This document shows positions 6,400 to 51,618 of a DNA stretch of 64,000 nt, piece by piece (the first letter of the stretch is position 1; every line of letters begins with the position of its first letter). This DNA comes from a virus, in IMG/VR virus record IMGVR_UViG_3300031857_000005, positions 124,001 through 188,000 of that record; one strand, written 5' to 3'. The translations under genes and the position numbers were made by a program. The notes beneath the pieces were generated by a model. That model was not told where the DNA came from. It was given only the letters and a program-made list of their open reading frames with translations, and did no database searches.

Positions 6400-6406
6400 T
6401 ATTTAT
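6400..6406 (+). promoter_or_regulatory. TATTTAT late-promoter-like motif of terminase
   Basis: TATTTAT sits just after the terminator and 14 nt before the ATG at 6421. It overlaps the TTG at 6406, which argues against that upstream start. Confidence 0.6.
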
Positions 6407-6420
6407 TGCTAAATGGTTTT

Positions 6421-8184
6421 ATGAGTTTAACTAAAGAACAGGTAATGTTGGAGTATGTAAAATGTATGAAGGATACTCCATACGCATTAAAAACATATTT
6501 ACAAACTTACGACAATACGGTATCACAATATGTCCCATTACAATTATTCCCCGATCAAGTTTCATTATTAAATGATTACGAAAGTTTTAACGAAAATATT
6601 GCATTAAAATATCGTCAAGCGGGTGTATCCACCGTAACTGCGGCATGGGTATCAAAAAAATTAGCGTTCGCAAAGAAAAATAAACCTGAAAAAATTCTAA
6701 TTATTGCCAACAAATTGGACACCTCTTTAGAGATGGCGAATAAGATTAGAGGGTTTGTTGGACAATGGCCGAAATGGGTTGGGATTGATTTTGCCGCAGA
6801 AAAAAATTCACAAAAACACTACAAATTAAATAACGGATGTGAAGTTAAAGCGGTTGCAACATCAAAGGATGCCCTTCGTGGATTTACCCCTACGGTTCTT
6901 ATATTTGATGAGGCGGCGTTTATTGAGGCGGATAGTGATTTTTGGGCGGCTTGTATGGCATCCCTATCTACAGGGGGTAAAGTAATCGTGGTATCAACAC
7001 CGAATGGTTATGATCCAATTTACTATGAAATATATGATCAGGCATTAAGAAATATGAACGACTTTAAAATTACAGAAATGTATTGGTTTAGAGATCCTCG
7101 TTACACAAAAGATTTATACTTGGTTAAAACTGAAGATATTATCCATTATTTGTTAAATAAAGAAGAATATCCTGAAGATAAAATATTAAGTTGGGAAGGT
7201 ATCCCATTTGAAACAAGAAATTATGATGATCTTAAAACAATAATGGATTCAGGTTACAAACCTTGTTCAGATTGGTTTGAAAGAATGGTTAAGAAACTTA
7301 AATATGATAAACGAAAAGTTTCTCAGGAGTTGGAATGTAACTTCCTTGGATCAGGAGATAATGTGTTTGATTCAAAGATGTTACAGACTATTCGTGAAAA
7401 TATGGTTAAAGACCCCCAAAATAAAATGATGGGAAATTCACTATGGATATGGAAGGAACCTATTGTTGGGCACAAATATATTATGGGGGTTGATGTTTCT
7501 CGTGGTGATAGTGAGGATTTTAGTACAATACAAATCATTGATTTTGATGAAAGAGAACAAGTATTGGAATACATTGGAAAAATTCCACCTGATGTATTGG
7601 CAGAAATTGCATATAAATGGGGAAATATGTATTCAGCATATATTGTAATTGATATCACTGGTGGTATGGGAATTGCAACATCAAGAAAATTACAAGAACT
7701 TGGATATAAAAATATGTATGTTGATGGTATTGATTTAAATAATACTTGGAAATACAATCCAAAAGCCCTTGATAAAATTCCTGGCATCAACTTTAATAAC
7801 AAAAGAGTTCAAATAATTGCCGCTTTTGAGGAAGGAATGAGACATAAGTTTAGGATATATAGTTCAAGGTTATATAATGAAATGAATACATTCGTATATG
7901 TGAATGGTAGACCGGATCACCAAAAAGGACATCACGATGATTTAATTATGTCCATATCAATGGCATTATATGTTGGGGAGTCCTCATTCTCAAGTTTAGA
8001 GAAAGTAACTGAACAAACTAAAGCAATGTTAGAATCTTGGACGGTAAATAATAATGAATCAGTTAAAAATGTAATTGATTTTAATCCCGTAATTCCACAT
8101 ATGAATCAAGATAGATTTAGAGATAATTCAAGTATTAGTAGAAAGGATTATGAAAACTATGGTTGGTTATTTGGTATTAGATAA
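6421..8184 (+). CDS. terL: Terminase large subunit (T4 gp17-like)
   Basis: 587 residues; the packaging ATPase and headful nuclease. The ATPase domain has a deviant P-loop, YRQAGVST (64-71), in which the usual GK(S/T) Lys is replaced by Val while a Lys precedes the loop (K63), and Walker B IFDEAAF with D163/E164. The RNase H-like nuclease domain has GVDVSRGDSEDFS near 356, IVIDITGGMG, and the terminal acidic site HHDDLIMS near 503. Length matches the T4 family (about 600). The ATG at 6421 is preferred over TTG 6406 because the promoter motif covers the latter. A late-type promoter precedes it and a small ORF plus the portal gene follow. Confidence 0.96.
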   Translation: MSLTKEQVMLEYVKCMKDTPYALKTYLQTYDNTVSQYVPLQLFPDQVSLLNDYESFNENIALKYRQAGVSTVTAAWVSKKLAFAKKNKPEKILIIANKLDTSLEMANKIRGFVGQWPKWVGIDFAAEKNSQKHYKLNNGCEVKAVATSKDALRGFTPTVLIFDEAAFIEADSDFWAACMASLSTGGKVIVVSTPNGYDPIYYEIYDQALRNMNDFKITEMYWFRDPRYTKDLYLVKTEDIIHYLLNKEEYPEDKILSWEGIPFETRNYDDLKTIMDSGYKPCSDWFERMVKKLKYDKRKVSQELECNFLGSGDNVFDSKMLQTIRENMVKDPQNKMMGNSLWIWKEPIVGHKYIMGVDVSRGDSEDFSTIQIIDFDEREQVLEYIGKIPPDVLAEIAYKWGNMYSAYIVIDITGGMGIATSRKLQELGYKNMYVDGIDLNNTWKYNPKALDKIPGINFNNKRVQIIAAFEEGMRHKFRIYSSRLYNEMNTFVYVNGRPDHQKGHHDDLIMSISMALYVGESSFSSLEKVTEQTKAMLESWTVNNNESVKNVIDFNPVIPHMNQDRFRDNSSISRKDYENYGWLFGIR

Positions 8185-8441: not shown

Positions 8442-10268
8442 ATGGAACAAAATCAAAATAATCTAACTATTTGGCAAAGATTATCTCAAGCATTTGGTCC
8501 GAATTCTTTATTAGGTCAAGATTTACCAACATACAAACTTGATAAGACAGAGTTATTAAGAACTACAGATAAGAAAGAATACGAACTTGAAAAACTACAA
8601 ACTCAACAATCATTGTACCTATCAGGACAATGGGCAAAAATTGAGAATAATCTATATACACAAGCGATTTATTATGAACCAACAAGATTGGCTTCATTTT
8701 ATGATTATGAATCTATGGAATTTACACCTGAGATTTCTACCGCTTTGGATATCTATTCTGAGGAATCGACAACCGCAGATCAAAACGGGTATATACTCCA
8801 AATATATTCTGAATCAAAAAGAATAAAAGGAATATTAGCAGATTTGTTTAATAATGTATTGGATATTAATACCAATCTTGCAATGTGGACAAGAAACACT
8901 TGTAAGTATGGTGATAATTTTGTTTATCTAAAACTTGATCCTGAAAAAGGAATTGTTGGTTGTATGCAATTACCTAACATTGAAATCGAAAGATTGGAGC
9001 GAGGTATGGCAGCTAAATCAACAAATGCTGAAGTTGATCCCAAATCTAAAGGTTTAAGATTTCATTGGAAGGTTAAAGATATGGAATTTAATTCTTGGGA
9101 GGTTGCTCACTTTAGATTATTGGGTGACGATAGAAAACTTCCTTATGGAACATCTATGCTTGAGAAGGCAAGAAGAATTTGGAAACAGTTAATGTTGTCT
9201 GAAGATGCGATGTTAATATATAGAACATCAAGAGCACCTGAAAGAAGGGTGTTTAAAGTGTTTGTTGGAAACATGGACGATAAGGATGTTGAACCATATG
9301 TACAAAGGGTTGCAAATAAGTTTAAACGAGATCAAGTGGTTGACTCAAAAACAGGAAATGTTGATTTAAGATTTAACCAAATGGCGGTGGATCAAGATTA
9401 TTTTGTACCTGTTAGAGATGCTACACAAACAATGCCGATTGAGACATTACCAGGAGCTCAAAACTTATCTGAAATTGCGGATATTGAATATATCCAAAAG
9501 AAATTGGTAACCGCATTGAGAGTTCCAAAGGCATATTTAGGATTTGAAGAGGTAGTTGGTGACGGTAAAAATCTATCATTACAAGATATTCGTTTTGCAA
9601 GGACTATTAATAAAATTCAAAAAAGTATGATTGCAGAAATGAATAAAATTGCAATCATTCACTTGTTCTTATTAGGTTTTGAAGACGAGTTACAAAACTT
9701 TACATTAGGACTTACTAACCCATCAAAACAAGCCGATTTGTTAATGGTTGATGTATGGAAAGAAAAAGTTCTTTTATATAAAGATTTGGTTACTGAGATA
9801 CCAAACACAATTCAACCAACATCAGCAACTTGGGCTAAGAAACATATATTCGGTTTCTCTGATGAGGATATTAAATTAGATGTACAACAAATTAGATTAG
9901 AGAGAGCAGTTGCTGCCGAACTTACAAATACACCAACAATTATTACACATACAGGAATGTTTGATACTGTTGATAAATTATACAAAACTAAATCAGGATC
10001 AACTCAAACTGCAGGTGCGGCACCAGCAGAAGGAGGAGGGGAACCACCTATGGGTGGAGGAATGCCACCGATGGGTCCTGAGCCAGGTGGAGGAGCGGAA
10101 CCACCACTACCAGGAGGAGAAACATTACCTGAAAATAAAGAAAAAAATAATTTAAATATTTTATTAGAAAGTGATGATATTCATGGTGATTCGTACATTG
10201 ACTTAAGTAGAGCGAGAAATTCTTTAGGTTCAATTGAGGATGAATTGAGCAAATTGTTAAGAGATTGA
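8442..10268 (+). CDS. Portal vertex protein (T4 gp20-like)
   Basis: 608 residues. The dodecameric portal through which DNA enters and leaves the head and to which the terminase docks. T4-family hallmarks are visible: ASFYDYESMEFTPEISTALD near 85-105, the helical core with YRTSRAPERRVFKV near 260, and FVPVRDATQTMPIETLPG followed by the long stem helix region. The C-terminus adds a Gly/Pro/Ala-rich tail (about residues 525-560) and ends near GSIEDELSKLLRD. T4 gp20 is 524 residues, so the extra length is mostly that low-complexity tail. It is transcribed from its own TATAAATA element and followed by a further late motif. Confidence 0.95.
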   Translation: MEQNQNNLTIWQRLSQAFGPNSLLGQDLPTYKLDKTELLRTTDKKEYELEKLQTQQSLYLSGQWAKIENNLYTQAIYYEPTRLASFYDYESMEFTPEISTALDIYSEESTTADQNGYILQIYSESKRIKGILADLFNNVLDINTNLAMWTRNTCKYGDNFVYLKLDPEKGIVGCMQLPNIEIERLERGMAAKSTNAEVDPKSKGLRFHWKVKDMEFNSWEVAHFRLLGDDRKLPYGTSMLEKARRIWKQLMLSEDAMLIYRTSRAPERRVFKVFVGNMDDKDVEPYVQRVANKFKRDQVVDSKTGNVDLRFNQMAVDQDYFVPVRDATQTMPIETLPGAQNLSEIADIEYIQKKLVTALRVPKAYLGFEEVVGDGKNLSLQDIRFARTINKIQKSMIAEMNKIAIIHLFLLGFEDELQNFTLGLTNPSKQADLLMVDVWKEKVLLYKDLVTEIPNTIQPTSATWAKKHIFGFSDEDIKLDVQQIRLERAVAAELTNTPTIITHTGMFDTVDKLYKTKSGSTQTAGAAPAEGGGEPPMGGGMPPMGPEPGGGAEPPLPGGETLPENKEKNNLNILLESDDIHGDSYIDLSRARNSLGSIEDELSKLLRD

Positions 10269-10275
10269 TATTTAT
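10269..10275 (+). promoter_or_regulatory. TATTTAT/TATAAATA palindromic late motif
   Basis: GATATTTATAAATAAAA contains both orientations of the motif, beginning at the portal stop and ending 14 nt before the ATG at 10290. The same composite sequence precedes the minus-strand gene at 21021. Confidence 0.6.
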
Positions 10276-10289
10276 AAATAAAAAAGATT

Positions 10290-11747: not shown

Positions 11748-11754
11748 TATTTAT
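11748..11754 (+). promoter_or_regulatory. TATTTAT late-promoter-like motif of the protease
   Basis: TATTTAT begins right after the upstream stop codon and ends 16 nt before the protease ATG at 11771. Confidence 0.6.
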
Positions 11755-11770
11755 ATAGAAAACTTTTGAT

Positions 11771-14299: not shown

Positions 14300-16177
14300 A
14301 TGGGAGCATTATTAGAATCAGGTCTTGTTGGTAATATTGGGTTAAAGCACCTTAAAGTTATCAAAGAAGATACTATTAACAAATGGGACAAATTAGGGTT
14401 CCTTGATGGACTTAAAGGACATCTAAAAGAAAATGTAGCACAGTTGTATGAAAACCAAGCTTCTTTCTTAATTAACGAAGCAACTTCTGAAGGTTCTAAC
14501 GGAGCGTTCGAAACAGTTGTTTTCCCTATCGTAAGAAGAGTTTTCTCTAAATTGTTGGCTAACGATATCGTATCAGTACAAGCAATGAACTTACCTATCG
14601 GTAAATTGTTCTACTTCGTACCTCGTATCCAAGGTTATGAAACAGGAACTGAACAAACTGCAGCAAATAACTATGTTGGTGGTGGTTCACACTACGCACC
14701 TGTAGGAGCACCTAATAACAACGGTGGATCAGTTGATTCATCAGTAATTGGAGCTGGATACCCTGACAATGCAAATGCATATAAGAAAAATCTTTATGAT
14801 TTATTCTACGAAGGTGCTGAAGGACAATTAGATCCTCCAGGATTGTTTGATTACTCAAAAGGAAAATGGTCAGCGGTAACTGCTGAAACTAGCGTACAAG
14901 CATGGAGTAATGGTGATTTGGATAATTATGTTTACTCATCAGGTTCTCAAGTAAGAAAAGTTATTGTTAAACTTTGTGGATGGAATCAAATTGAAGGTTA
15001 CGGAAAATTAATAGGTCCTGATGGAAATGAGGTTGATTCTGAAACTTTCCTTTCTGACTTAAGAATTTTTGCACCTAGAGGAAATGCTGCTTTAACAGGT
15101 ACAACACCTTGTAATGTTGTTTATAACGCTGAAGGTAATCCAAATTCACTATTGTTTAGAGTTGTTACTCAACAATATGGTAAAGGAATCGTTAAATATG
15201 GTTCTAACCGAGGAACTACATTCCCTGAAACAGGTAATGGTGGTTCTTACTACAACATCTGTGATGGTAATGGTTGTATCTATTTAGAAGTAGATTTATC
15301 TTGTCCAGCATGTGCTGACTGTGGTGACACTTCATTAGATGGTTACACAGGAACTACATTGACGGCTAACTTGGCGTCAGGTACTTCATTCTACGCGGCT
15401 TGGAGAACTTATGAGAACCTTGAGTTCCAAGATCAAATTGGTGAGGTTTCTTTTGATTTAGAATCTGTTACAGTTTCTGTATCTGAAAGAAAACTAAGAG
15501 CACAATGGTCACCTGAAATGGCTCAAGATGTTGCGGCATTCCACAATATCGATGCAGAGGCTGAATTGACAGCGTTGTTGTCAGAACAAGTAGCAGCTGA
15601 AATCGACCGTGAAATTCTTCGTGACTTGAGAAAAGGAGCGGCTTGGAATCTTCGTTGGGATTACAACGGATGGAGAAGAATCCAACAAACTACATCTTAC
15701 ACTCAGAAAGATTGGAACCAAACTTTGATTACTGCGATTAACCAATTGTCAGCACAAATCCACAAATCAACATTGAGAGGTGGGGCTAACTGGATCGTTG
15801 TATCTTCTGAGGTTTCTGCAATCTTCGATGATTTAGAATACTTCCACGTATCTAACGCATCTCCTGAGCAAGATCAGTATAACATGGGTATCGAAAGAGT
15901 TGGTACTTTAGCAGGACGTTACCAAGTGTATCGTGATCCTTACTTCCCACCAAACCAAGTTTTGATTGGACACAAAGGAACATCGTTACTTGACACAGGT
16001 TACATCTACGCACCGTATGTACCTCTACAATTGACACCTACAATGTACAATCCGTTCAACTTCACACCTATCAAAGGTATTATGACAAGATACGCTAAGA
16101 AAATGGTTAATAACCGTTTCTACGGTCGTATCACTGTTGATGGAGTTCGTACATTCGATTTAAGAGAATTGAGATAA
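14300..16177 (+). CDS. Major capsid protein (T4 gp23-like)
   Basis: 625 residues against 521 in T4. The N-terminus shows the usual helix KWDKLGFLDGLKGHLKENVA and QLYENQASFLINE/ATSEG; the L-I-N-E/A junction (E60/A61) matches the gp21 cleavage rule and the position of the T4 cut (E65). The HK97-fold shell segments follow, including a region around FPIVRRVFSKLLANDIVSVQ and the C-terminal NRFYGRITVDGVRTFDLREL. A Gly/Asn-rich insertion around 115-370 includes a Cys cluster, CPACADCGD, probably a surface domain. A strong terminator follows the gene. Confidence 0.95.
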   Translation: MGALLESGLVGNIGLKHLKVIKEDTINKWDKLGFLDGLKGHLKENVAQLYENQASFLINEATSEGSNGAFETVVFPIVRRVFSKLLANDIVSVQAMNLPIGKLFYFVPRIQGYETGTEQTAANNYVGGGSHYAPVGAPNNNGGSVDSSVIGAGYPDNANAYKKNLYDLFYEGAEGQLDPPGLFDYSKGKWSAVTAETSVQAWSNGDLDNYVYSSGSQVRKVIVKLCGWNQIEGYGKLIGPDGNEVDSETFLSDLRIFAPRGNAALTGTTPCNVVYNAEGNPNSLLFRVVTQQYGKGIVKYGSNRGTTFPETGNGGSYYNICDGNGCIYLEVDLSCPACADCGDTSLDGYTGTTLTANLASGTSFYAAWRTYENLEFQDQIGEVSFDLESVTVSVSERKLRAQWSPEMAQDVAAFHNIDAEAELTALLSEQVAAEIDREILRDLRKGAAWNLRWDYNGWRRIQQTTSYTQKDWNQTLITAINQLSAQIHKSTLRGGANWIVVSSEVSAIFDDLEYFHVSNASPEQDQYNMGIERVGTLAGRYQVYRDPYFPPNQVLIGHKGTSLLDTGYIYAPYVPLQLTPTMYNPFNFTPIKGIMTRYAKKMVNNRFYGRITVDGVRTFDLRELR

Positions 16178-16199: not shown

Positions 16200-16229
16200 A
16201 AAGGAGACAAGAAATTGTCTCCTTTTTTT
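16200..16229 (+). terminator. Strong terminator after major capsid gene
   Basis: Perfect 11-bp stem AAAGGAGACAA / TTGTCTCCTTT closed by a GAAA tetraloop (16211-16214) and followed by T residues. It is the strongest hairpin in the window. Confidence 0.95.
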
Positions 16230-16254
16230 ATTTATGATAATTTATAATGAGTTA

Positions 16255-16261
16255 TATTTAT
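16255..16261 (+). promoter_or_regulatory. TATTTAT late-promoter-like motif of the secreted protein gene
   Basis: TATTTAT ends 12 nt before the ATG at 16274. The following leader, ATAAAAAAGATT, is nearly identical to that of the gene at 10290, which supports this start over the upstream ATG at 16247. Confidence 0.6.
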
Positions 16262-16273
16262 ATAAAAAAGATT

Positions 16274-17392
16274 ATGAAAAAAATATTACTATTTTTAATG
16301 TTATTAATAAGTTCCGTAATAAACGGACAAACAGTATTATATAATGATAATTGTGAAGTATCTGGGTATAACTGGTTTGGGTTTTCAACGAACCCTCAGT
16401 TCCCAAACATATTTTCAACATATTTAGGTGGGACAACATCAATTTCAGATGGACCATCAAATAAACCTCTATATGTTAGTAATAGTAGTTCATTTGGTTT
16501 ATTTGGTCTTGGGGGGTCAGGTTCAGGAAGTGAATATGAAAGATATCAATTACCTAACATAACTGGATTGAATCCTAATAAACTATATAGATTTACTTTT
16601 AAACTTATGGCGTACGCTGAAAATATTACAGGGTTTTCAGGAAGTGGTTTAGACGTTACCGATTCTGTAACGGTAAGAGTTTCGGTAAATAACGGACCAT
16701 ATCAAATTGAGTCTATAATTAAAGGGTGGTCAAACTCATACTGGAGTTTTGATGCAACTGGAATTATTAATGAAACTGCCAATGGATTACCAAATACATA
16801 TAGACCAATATCTGCGGGTAATCAAGAAAATACCGGATTTGGGTATTCTACATATAACTTATTATTAACAAATATTAGTCAAATACAAATTAGAATAGAT
16901 ATGAGATCAAATTATGGTGGTTCTAATTATGGTGAATGGTGGGTAATTGATGATATGGAATTAATAGATGAGGATCCCCTACCTGTTGAGTTGATGTCAT
17001 TTGATGGTATGTCAACTGAGGAAGGTAACCTTTTATTATGGAAAACTGCATCAGAGCACAATTCAGATTATTTTTTAATTCAATCCACAATTGATGGTGA
17101 AAAATACACTACAGTTGATAAAGTTGGTGCTGCGGGTAATAGTAATCAAGTAATGGAATATAGTTTATTAGACACAAAGTATGGTAATAATTTAACCTAT
17201 TATAGATTGTTACAATATGACTTTGACGGTAAATATACTATATACGGTCCAATATTAATTAATAACCAAGTTAAAGAAAAGAAAGTTATTAAAATCATTG
17301 ATTTAATGGGGAAAGAAGTTACAGAATTTTCTTCAAATGGTATATATATTGAGGTATATGAAGATGGTACAATGAGTAAAGTGTGGAGATAA
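16274..17392 (+). CDS. Secreted protein with T9SS-like C-terminal sorting segment
   Basis: 372 residues from the ATG at 16274. Residues 1-19 are a Sec signal peptide (MKKILLFLMLLISSVINGQ) with the Gln start common in Bacteroidetes exported proteins. The middle is a beta-rich Gly/Ser/Asn domain. From about residue 235, PLPVELMSFDG followed by YYRLLQYDFDGKYTIYGP is the fibronectin-like pre-sorting domain typical of Bacteroidetes surface proteins. The last 37 residues, with KIIDLMGKEV, SNGIYIEVYEDG and terminal SKVWR, match the second half of a type A T9SS sorting signal; the usual PNP half is missing. It was probably host-derived and is now under a late-type phage promoter beside the capsid gene. 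Surface display, cell-surface modification or superinfection exclusion are possible roles. Confidence 0.82.
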   Translation: MKKILLFLMLLISSVINGQTVLYNDNCEVSGYNWFGFSTNPQFPNIFSTYLGGTTSISDGPSNKPLYVSNSSSFGLFGLGGSGSGSEYERYQLPNITGLNPNKLYRFTFKLMAYAENITGFSGSGLDVTDSVTVRVSVNNGPYQIESIIKGWSNSYWSFDATGIINETANGLPNTYRPISAGNQENTGFGYSTYNLLLTNISQIQIRIDMRSNYGGSNYGEWWVIDDMELIDEDPLPVELMSFDGMSTEEGNLLLWKTASEHNSDYFLIQSTIDGEKYTTVDKVGAAGNSNQVMEYSLLDTKYGNNLTYYRLLQYDFDGKYTIYGPILINNQVKEKKVIKIIDLMGKEVTEFSSNGIYIEVYEDGTMSKVWR

Positions 17393-17670: not shown

Positions 17671-18969
17671 ATGTTAAATGATATTATAAAAAAAATTTTA
17701 AGGGAGGCAACTTCAGATAGTAGTGGATCTAGAGGTTCATTTGTTGTACCATTAAGACCTGGTTTAAAAAAATTTGATAAAACACAGTTAGCTCCATTTA
17801 CAGAAAAGGTTTCTAACTATGATAGTCCATTATTAGATTATGATAGTTACGACGGTAAAATGAGTGAAACCAAGAAACAAATTAAAAAAATTGAGGGTAA
17901 GGCTGAGAAATCTACAAAGTATCTCAAAAATCACCCAATTCAAAATGATGATGATGGGGATATTATAAACCCAACACCAGGAAAAGGAAAAAAATTTGTT
18001 CCCATTAAAGAAAGTTCAACATCAATATCTGCGGGAGAATATTCCGGACCAATAGAACTTGGACTTAAAAAATGGAAACCTCAATTGTTGGCTCCATTCA
18101 CAGAATTTGTTGATACTGAAATTAATCATAAGAAAAAACAAAAAACCATGAAAAACAACATCAAAAAACAAGTTGGCGTTTGGGAAAAAAATCCTGACGG
18201 GACTTACAAACAAGATGATCATGATGTTCACACTATTAAAGAGGATTTAGCGGTATGGTTTGGTACAAAGAAAAAACCAAAAGGATCTAAACAACCAAAA
18301 GGTCCATGGGTTGATATTTGTCGTAAGGTAAATGGAAAACATCCACCTTGTGGAAGAAGTGATTCCGACAGTGGTGCATATCCTAAATGTCGTGCAGTAG
18401 GTGTTGCGGGTAAAATGAGTGACTCAGCAAAAAAAGCGGCTTGTCAACAAAAAAGAAAAGCCGAGAAAAAAGACACTCAAACAGGTAAAGGACAAAAACC
18501 AATTATGACATCTTATAAACCAAGAAAAAAAACAAATGAAAATATGAAAACAATTAGATTGACAGAATCTGAATTAGTTAGAATTGTAAAAAAAATTCTT
18601 AACGAAGAAACCTCAATGGGATTAAAAAAGGAAACTCCTCAGATGTTTATGGTAGATAAATTGTGGGATAGAAAAATGATTACCCCAATAGATAACACCA
18701 ATATTAGTGTACAAAAAGGATATGAGGTTTGGTATGGTTATGATAATGTTGGTAGAAAAATTGTTGAATCTTCAAAAGTAATGAGTACTTTTGGTAGGGT
18801 AGAATTAAATTGTAATACAAAAATGGTTGATTATGATACGATGGCAACTAAAAAATATGAGGAGTACTCTATTGACATTGAAAGACAAAAACAATCTGAT
18901 TTTGATTTCTTAAACCCATATTGCTCAATGATTGACTGGAAATATGGTGACAAACCTAAAAAAAGGTAG
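17671..18969 (+). CDS. Composite head-associated protein with two targeting-like motifs
   Basis: 432 residues from the ATG at 17671; an upstream extension to 17536 would cover the promoter and the divergent gene. It begins MLNDIIKKILREATSD, whose L-R-E/A fits the prohead protease consensus. Two imperfect repeats follow (RPGLKKFDKTQLAPFTE and LGLKKWKPQLLAPFTE). Residues about 190-270 contain WVDICRKVNGKHPPCGR and AYPKCRAVG, resembling the Cys-containing DUF5872-type domain of phages and large viruses. At residue 292 (ATG at 18544) a second N-terminus-like motif begins, MKTIRLTESELVRIVKKILN, as if a second gene were fused in frame; an internal start there would give 141 residues. Probably an internal virion protein. 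Confidence 0.72.
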   Translation: MLNDIIKKILREATSDSSGSRGSFVVPLRPGLKKFDKTQLAPFTEKVSNYDSPLLDYDSYDGKMSETKKQIKKIEGKAEKSTKYLKNHPIQNDDDGDIINPTPGKGKKFVPIKESSTSISAGEYSGPIELGLKKWKPQLLAPFTEFVDTEINHKKKQKTMKNNIKKQVGVWEKNPDGTYKQDDHDVHTIKEDLAVWFGTKKKPKGSKQPKGPWVDICRKVNGKHPPCGRSDSDSGAYPKCRAVGVAGKMSDSAKKAACQQKRKAEKKDTQTGKGQKPIMTSYKPRKKTNENMKTIRLTESELVRIVKKILNEETSMGLKKETPQMFMVDKLWDRKMITPIDNTNISVQKGYEVWYGYDNVGRKIVESSKVMSTFGRVELNCNTKMVDYDTMATKKYEEYSIDIERQKQSDFDFLNPYCSMIDWKYGDKPKKR

Positions 18970-18986
18970 TTATAACACTACCTTTT
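18961..18986. terminator. Bidirectional terminator between convergent genes
   Basis: AAAAGGTAGT (18961-18970) pairs with ACTACCTTTT (18977-18986) around a 6-nt loop, with A and T tracts outside. The stop codons of both convergent genes lie within it. Confidence 0.85.
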
Positions 18987-19377
18987 TTTGTTTTTCTATC
19001 TCAATCTTATATTTTGAGCAGACAATATAATCTTTTTTATTTTTAGTGACTACAAAATCAAATCCTTCTTTAACAGGTATTGAGAATACATATTTGGTTT
19101 TAAACAAATTATCCTTAATTGCTACAATAATCACACAGTTACCATCAAATGATTTTTCTACTATAGTATATGGTTTTTCATTTGAAAATAGTTTATATGG
19201 GTGTACCATATCTGCCATCATATGAAATAGATAATTATATTTTGGAGTTTTTTCTTTTCCATTTTTATAAATTACTAATGGTTCCACATCAATGTAGTGA
19301 ATACTATCACAGTTAAATTGTGAGAAACTATAAAAAGACATTAAAAAAGATACGATTAATAAAAATAGATTTTTCAT
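18970..19377 (-). CDS. Exported small protein, unknown function
   Basis: 135 residues with a clear Sec signal peptide, MKNLFLLIVSFLMSFYSFSQ, then a basic mature part of about 115 residues with two Cys pairs' worth of Cys (C23, and Cys in NCVIIV and YIVCSKYKI). No lipobox. No family recognised. It is the second exported protein encoded here and ends at the shared terminator. Action in the periplasm or at the cell surface is inferred; candidates include an envelope-modifying or exclusion factor. Confidence 0.7.
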   Translation of the reverse strand: MKNLFLLIVSFLMSFYSFSQFNCDSIHYIDVEPLVIYKNGKEKTPKYNYLFHMMADMVHPYKLFSNEKPYTIVEKSFDGNCVIIVAIKDNLFKTKYVFSIPVKEGFDFVVTKNKKDYIVCSKYKIEIEKQKKVVL

Positions 19378-19911: not shown

Positions 19912-20379
19912 TTAACAATATGAACCTGAACAATGTTTTTTACCGTCTAATCCTGGTTTTGTACCTTTACATACTTGTACCGCATAACCATTAGCATATG
20001 CCGAAGGGTAAACCTCAAATTTAGATTTTGCTGCCGCTTTACCACGAGCACATAATTTAGTTCCTGTTTTCTTACGTCCTTCCATCATCATATCATCATC
20101 ATCAATATTCATTGACATTTGCATTCCGTGTTTTTTGGTTTCATTCATTAAAAAATCAAAAACTTGATCCATATTGTTTTTCGCTTCAGAAATATGATCT
20201 TGAGCCCAATCGTGACCATTCTCAAGAATTTCTTCAATCATAGAGTGATCCATATCCAACAACATATCACATTGTCTTCTCATTTGTTGAAGGTTTGAAA
20301 AGAACATATATCTATTACTTTCTTCGTGAGTCTCTCTAAGAACTCTTTTTACTACTCTACTTACTAAATCCGTTTTCAT
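19912..20379 (-). CDS. Head-associated protein with targeting-like N-terminus and ARGKAAAK domain
   Basis: 155 residues beginning MKTDLVSRVVKRVLRETHEE, another basic helix ending L-R-E followed by a small residue. The middle is Met/Asp-rich. The C-terminal third has the motif KLCARGKAAAKSKFEVYPSA followed by YANGYAVQVCKG, which I know from proteins of marine phages and large viruses; two Cys bracket it. It is 6 nt from the upstream Cys-rich gene and probably co-transcribed with it. It may be an internal virion protein with a nucleic-acid-binding tail. Confidence 0.7.
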   Translation of the reverse strand: MKTDLVSRVVKRVLRETHEESNRYMFFSNLQQMRRQCDMLLDMDHSMIEEILENGHDWAQDHISEAKNNMDQVFDFLMNETKKHGMQMSMNIDDDDMMMEGRKKTGTKLCARGKAAAKSKFEVYPSAYANGYAVQVCKGTKPGLDGKKHCSGSYC

Positions 20380-51600: not shown

Positions 51601-51607
51601 TATTTAT
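51601..51607 (+). promoter_or_regulatory. TATTTAT late motif of the large fibre gene
   Basis: TATTTATAGTAAAAAAAC begins within 3 nt of the upstream stop and ends 11 nt before the ATG at 51619. Confidence 0.6.
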
Positions 51608-51618
51608 AGTAAAAAAAC

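Follow-up and report, generated by a model that had tools for sequence, protein, structure and literature searches.

Whether a large phage can send one of its own proteins to the surface of the infected cell through the host type IX secretion system (T9SS) is the question raised by a gene located directly behind the major capsid gene of this virus. The gene lies in a window of 64,000 nucleotides, the whole stretch of DNA analyzed here, which comprises bases 124001–188000 of a 304,365-base virus record. It encodes a 372-aa protein and occupies a position between the capsid gene and a conserved phage gene that is referred to here as the capsid-side slot. The features of the locus, in window coordinates, are as follows.

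6406–8184, terminase in the head gene block (PHROGs match)
8442–10268, portal in the head gene block (PHROGs match)
14300–16177, + strand, major capsid protein, upstream flank of the slot (phrog_138 major head protein, E = 6.5e-68)
16200–16225, + strand, intrinsic terminator in the gap between the capsid and cargo genes (11-bp stem, then a T run)
16254–16261, + strand, promoter-like element ATATTTAT, 20 nt ahead of the start codon at 16274
16274–17392, + strand, predicted T9SS cargo gene, 372 aa (ORF 16247–17392, ATG at 16274)
17674–18969, + strand, conserved phage gene, downstream flank of the slot (homologue at the same place in many phages)
10269–10276, 11748–11755, 16254–16261 and 51601–51608, example copies of the ATATTTAT/TATTTATA element, ~20 nt before start codons

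The phrog_138 match of the upstream gene confirmed that the cargo gene sits directly behind the major capsid gene, an adjacency that is not universal among phages. The terminator in the gap had a fold z-score of −4.5, and its stability was equaled in 0 of 200 shuffles. Of the 59 window genes, 10 have ATATTTAT in the 60 nt that precede them compared to 0.33 expected; most of these copies lie in the structural region. The ATATTTAT/TATTTATA element is probably a promoter class of the structural-region genes of this phage. This recurrence makes a late-type promoter for the cargo gene plausible, and late expression from its own promoter is a plausible reading of the sequence. The late-type promoter put forward in the preliminary description was upheld to the extent that the element recurs in the structural region, whereas the T4 late motif TATAAATA was not enriched in the window (20 seen versus 16.5 expected). 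Downstream, a second and small protein that begins with a Bacteroidota-type signal peptide and matches no family is encoded at 18970–19377 (− strand, 135 aa); it was found solely in this phage and near-identical contigs. Another small gene, at 19912–20379 (− strand), has homologues close to the cargo gene where that gene is capsid-side and also where it is MoxR-side.

The 372-aa protein had no match in Pfam, PHROGs or PDB sequences and no meaningful NCBIfam model. Homologues were present at ~40 viral loci, and Q19, W222, W223, D226, L236, P237 and G346, among other residues, were invariant across 26 that were aligned. The protein can be divided into the following parts.

16274–16327, + strand, Sec signal peptide, residues 1–18, predicted cut before Q19 (invariant, n = 26)
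16328–16978, + strand, N-terminal ectodomain, residues 19–235, jelly-roll or galactose-binding-like (model, Foldseek and weak Pfam matches)
16979–17266, + strand, Ig-like pre-sorting module, residues 236–331 (pLDDT ~90)
17267–17389, + strand, predicted short C-terminal sorting tail, residues 332–372, 41 residues (bacterial-tail HMM, models and terminal position)
17285–17320, + strand, motif B-like VIKIIDLMGKEV, residues 338–349 (hhalign to type A CTD motif B)
17339–17368, + strand, motif D-like GIYIEVYEDG, residues 356–365 (GxY pattern of PMC11969387)
17369–17389, + strand, motif E-like TMSKVWR, basic C-terminus, residues 366–372 (basic end in homologues)

A Q placed after the signal peptide agrees with the Q-rule of Bacteroidetes (PMC5837995). 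Signal peptides were called with a simple heuristic test of hydropathy and charge that required a Q position in range; the count excluded truncated ORFs as well as L121, which has an uncertain ORF start. By this test, all 35 homologues scored and all 50 further viral tail proteins were signal-peptide-like with a Q in range, and the 372-aa protein itself has the Sec signal peptide expected of T9SS cargo, as had been claimed for it.

Homologue pairs had dN/dS values of 0.08–0.20, with the most distant pairs near saturation, and this purifying selection indicates that the gene is maintained. It also argues against a cargo gene derived from the host and carried as passive freight without benefit to the phage, an origin with which the occurrence of the Ig module and tail in Bacteroidota genomes would be compatible. 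Passive freight is further at odds with the occupation of the same slot across divergent phages, with the single tail gene per record in 11 of 11 positive phage records (ten others and this genome) and with the presence of the ectodomain family at some 40 viral loci, and we regard it as extremely improbable.

The pre-sorting domain recognized in the preliminary description corresponds to the Ig-like residues 236–331. In bacteria, a type A-like CTD followed this module in all 30 loci read, mostly directly and in some cases past further domains. The module was detected at E ≤ 1e-8 in 52 of 60 sampled Bacteroidia genomes, with up to 41 copies per genome. In two MAGs, 40 strong canonical CTDs had no such Ig module ahead of them; in a search wider than the two MAGs, the Ig module and CTD were found together.

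Within the tail, Gly346 of motif B was invariant and Gly356 and Gly365 of motif D were nearly invariant among the 26 aligned homologues, and basic residues were present at the C-terminal end in nearly all homologues. Motif D reads GIY in the 372-aa protein, with the Tyr lost in some homologues, and no conserved Tyr was found near the Gly of motif B in the tails compared here. AlphaFold models of the 372-aa protein and one homologue predicted exactly three strands for the tail (residues 338–343, 357–362 and 367–371; pLDDT ~84–91). The YPNP motif is absent from the tail sequence, in line with the missing PNP half pointed out earlier, and the models contain three strands in place of the seven-strand sandwich. 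Neither TIGR04183 nor Pfam gave a match to the tail over the cut-off. Of the two computational tests that had been proposed for a type A domain, the TIGR04183 profile search of the C-terminus thus fails as stated, and the structure prediction returned three strands without a full beta-sandwich. Given this lack of matches to T9SS profiles, it is probable that many proteins of this kind have been annotated as hypothetical.

Homology of the tail to bacterial sequences was seen by two profile comparisons. Alignment of phage tails to bacterial tails by hhalign gave Prob 99.4 and E = 1.3e-21, and a profile built from bacterial short tails alone retrieved this ORF from the 794 window ORFs with E = 1.1e-14 (next best, 0.006), with the limit that the phage model had served to gather the bacterial tails, so that the bacterial and phage profiles are not fully independent. 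When the tail was aligned to canonical CTDs of two Flavobacteriales genomes, motif B alone was aligned (P = 6e-4). The preliminary description had placed the tail with type A cargo; TIGR04183 does not recognize it, and with motifs B, D and E it resembles a short T9SS sorting domain.

The tail was present in 21 of 295 sampled bacterial genomes, and its bacterial matches ended 0–6 residues from the C-terminus in 32 of 32 cases. It is borne by unrelated secreted proteins, for example a PHA depolymerase with a choice-of-anchor J domain, and a signal peptide was judged by eye to start 19 of the 22 untruncated bacterial tail ORFs. More than 120 canonical CTD matches were present in each of two tail-positive genomes counted. 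SprA was encoded in 21 of 21 tail-positive genomes and in 286 of all 295 sampled, so near-universal a distribution that its co-occurrence with the tail is not informative. That the tail belongs to no T9SS CTD family of the searched libraries would suit a protein exported by Sec to the periplasm only, the tail having another use such as outer-membrane anchoring or folding. We consider this very unlikely, as the tail takes the CTD position behind the Ig module and has the motif pattern and predicted three-strand fold of known short CTDs (PMC11969387).

When viral contigs were scanned, the tail was located at 70 loci, and nearly all untruncated viral tail proteins had a signal peptide at the start and the tail at the end. 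The tail was absent from three other huge-phage records. At least one TIGR04183 protein over the cut-off was found in each of the huge phages L008–L011 (462–642 kb); in L009, a full TIGR04183 domain over the cut-off is joined to a similar Ig module. These four phages correspond to LR745206, LR756500, LR756504 and LR756502 and are unannotated.

In many phages, the tail protein gene lies between the capsid gene and a homologue of 17674–18969, and the proteins encoded in this slot range from 352 to 859 aa. Phages with capsid proteins 85–98% identical to that of this phage may nevertheless have slot proteins that share just the Ig module (43–55%) and the tail (46–59%), with at most marginal similarity to the 372-aa protein upstream of the Ig module. 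Ectodomains of other slot proteins include CUB, GEVED, fn3 and a T9SS-associated galactose-binding domain. In the N-domain tree, this phage grouped with L003 (support 100/100); in the C-domain tree, its partner was L025 (100/98). Identities for the N-domain, Ig module and tail were 78, 47 and 43% with L003 and 37, 70 and 55% with L025. The strongly supported tree conflict indicates that the N- and C-terminal parts of the cargo family have different histories. An endonuclease VII-like gene lies between the capsid and cargo genes in the related phages L018 (5210–5890), L003 and L022, at the same place in each, and it may drive exchange at the slot. In other phages, the cargo gene adjoins genes for a MoxR-like ATPase, HNH and GroEL, so that capsid adjacency is one of several contexts. 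In L028:7146–12767, the cargo gene is followed by genes for a MoxR-like ATPase, a large peptidase/CobT-like protein and a phage GroEL. Around the cargo gene of L006:2666–13026, four mutually similar ORFs form a local paralogous family.

Decoration proteins of the T4 Hoc type contain an Ig-like domain and are encoded near the capsid gene. The 372-aa protein resembles them in both respects, and its ectodomain differs between close relatives and its gene is preceded by a promoter-like element common to structural genes, as might be expected if it were a Hoc-like protein with Ig and carbohydrate-binding modules that decorates the phage head. Such a protein should have no export signal, whereas this one has a signal peptide with an invariant Q and, at its other end, a sorting tail common to bacterial secreted enzymes. 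In addition, the cargo gene is parted from the capsid gene by the terminator and lies away from the capsid gene in many phages. Decoration of the virion is therefore unlikely, if somewhat less so than export by Sec only.

The ectodomain that would be displayed by the T9SS route was modeled with low to moderate pLDDT over residues 19–235. Its Foldseek neighbors were the MAM-Ig region of RPTP-mu, the Epf adhesin and glycosidase accessory domains, all with TM-scores so low (~0.2) that they merely hint at jelly-roll and Ig modules. Homologues gave weak Pfam matches to CBM_56, F5_F8_type_C_2 and Endotoxin_C. These weak similarities suggest that the ectodomain may be a binding-type module with a jelly-roll or galactose-binding-like fold.

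Export by the host T9SS, as originally proposed, is the best-supported reading of the sequence. It draws on the invariant Q, the homology of the tail to bacterial tails, the Ig module ahead of type A CTDs and the three-strand models, together with purifying selection, the variable slot and the conflicting N- and C-domain trees. Against it stand the failure of TIGR04183 and Pfam to match the tail and the confinement of canonical CTD similarity to motif B. We infer a route of five steps. The gene would be expressed late from its own promoter (step 1), and the protein would be exported by Sec and cut before Q19, which its sequence strongly indicates (step 2). The SprA translocon and the PorV shuttle of the host would then recognize the tail, with its motifs B, D and E and predicted three-stranded sheet, and the protein would cross the outer membrane, as suggested by the bacterial tail homology and published short CTDs (step 3). 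Cleavage of the tail would leave the protein on the cell surface or release it (step 4). That the 372-aa protein is a T9SS cargo that follows steps 2–4 is, in our judgment, quite probable. In step 5, the least certain and proposed with considerable reservation, the ectodomain, swapped between related phages, would alter the infected-cell surface, most likely through receptor masking or competition, such that other phages are kept out or progeny do not stick to spent cells.

A late-expressed, variable surface-display gene that uses the host T9SS is thus the best reading of the locus, its display part being well supported by sequence features. Domain swapping, the late-type promoter and the binding-type ectodomains together suggest that the protein changes how phages or cells make contact with an infected host cell. 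As the purpose of display, exclusion of competitors is our leading guess, beside masking and adhesion. The wider proposal, that large Bacteroidota phages keep a capsid-side slot where ectodomains are exchanged by recombination while the Ig-plus-short-CTD module stays constant, each phage lineage thereby giving its infected host a coat of its own by way of the T9SS, chiefly to exclude competing phages, is tentative and seems to us possible rather than probable.

The closest known counterparts of the tail are the short CTDs of Prevotella intermedia, of which 48 were described (defining set, 40–51 residues), with motifs B, D and E kept (PMC11969387). They were modeled as one three-stranded sheet, and PorV binding in the manner of long CTDs was predicted for them; in some cases, cleavage and glycosylation were shown by experiment (PMC11969387). 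Compared by published description, the phage tail is similar in its 41-residue length, terminal position, motifs B, D and E and accompanying signal peptide, in the conserved Gly of motifs B and D, the GxY of motif D and the basic motif E, and, by strand count in the models, in its three predicted strands. Unlike the Prevotella CTDs, in which the motif B Tyr is strongly conserved (PMC11969387), its motif B lacks a conserved Tyr, and its range covers phages as well as other Bacteroidia, Flavobacteriales among them. With type A CTDs (TIGR04183/PF18962), the phage tail shares motif B and the place behind the same Ig-like module but lacks the PNP motif, the full beta-sandwich and the profile match. 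The preliminary description had suggested that the missing PNP half could alter export; the short CTDs processed in Prevotella and the Ig module before bacterial CTDs indicate that its loss need not impair export, and that suggestion is not supported. In the HBP35 CTD, the C-terminal 22 residues, which contain motifs D and E, were needed to bring GFP to the surface (PMC3120885), and a review describes them as sufficient for this delivery (PMC10202324). CTDs are not freely exchangeable across species (PMC11285876), so the phage tail is probably tuned to its host. If the proposed function is correct, these tails provide natural short CTDs from outside Prevotella for probing the needs of the translocon and shuttle, and the locus offers a testable route for phage remodeling of the infected-cell surface.

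Among phage proteins, the cargo protein differs from those of the T4 Hoc type in its signal peptide and sorting tail and in not always being encoded near the capsid gene. The Q-rule proteins of Porphyromonas gingivalis phages (PMC10367356) are likewise phage proteins with Bacteroidota-type signal peptides, and the text of that paper makes no mention of T9SS. In the open-licence papers searched, the sole earlier report of phage T9SS cargo was that of Cryophage in 2020 (Bellas et al., PMC7468147), which has three cargo genes with recognized type A domains, encoding an endoglucanase, a GH39 protein and a PA14 protein; the cargo was variable between variants, and superinfection exclusion was suggested (PMC7468147). 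Both systems comprise phage proteins with T9SS sorting domains, predicted in the present case, that vary between otherwise similar phages. In contrast to Cryophage, the phages described here have one such gene per record, often in a conserved capsid-side slot, with a short CTD that is missed by standard profiles and occurs in many large phages. What is new here, as judged from sequence, is a widespread short-tail variant of putative phage T9SS cargo at ~70 viral loci, and, if this reading is correct, T9SS hijacking would go beyond a single report and recur as a trait among large Bacteroidota phages.
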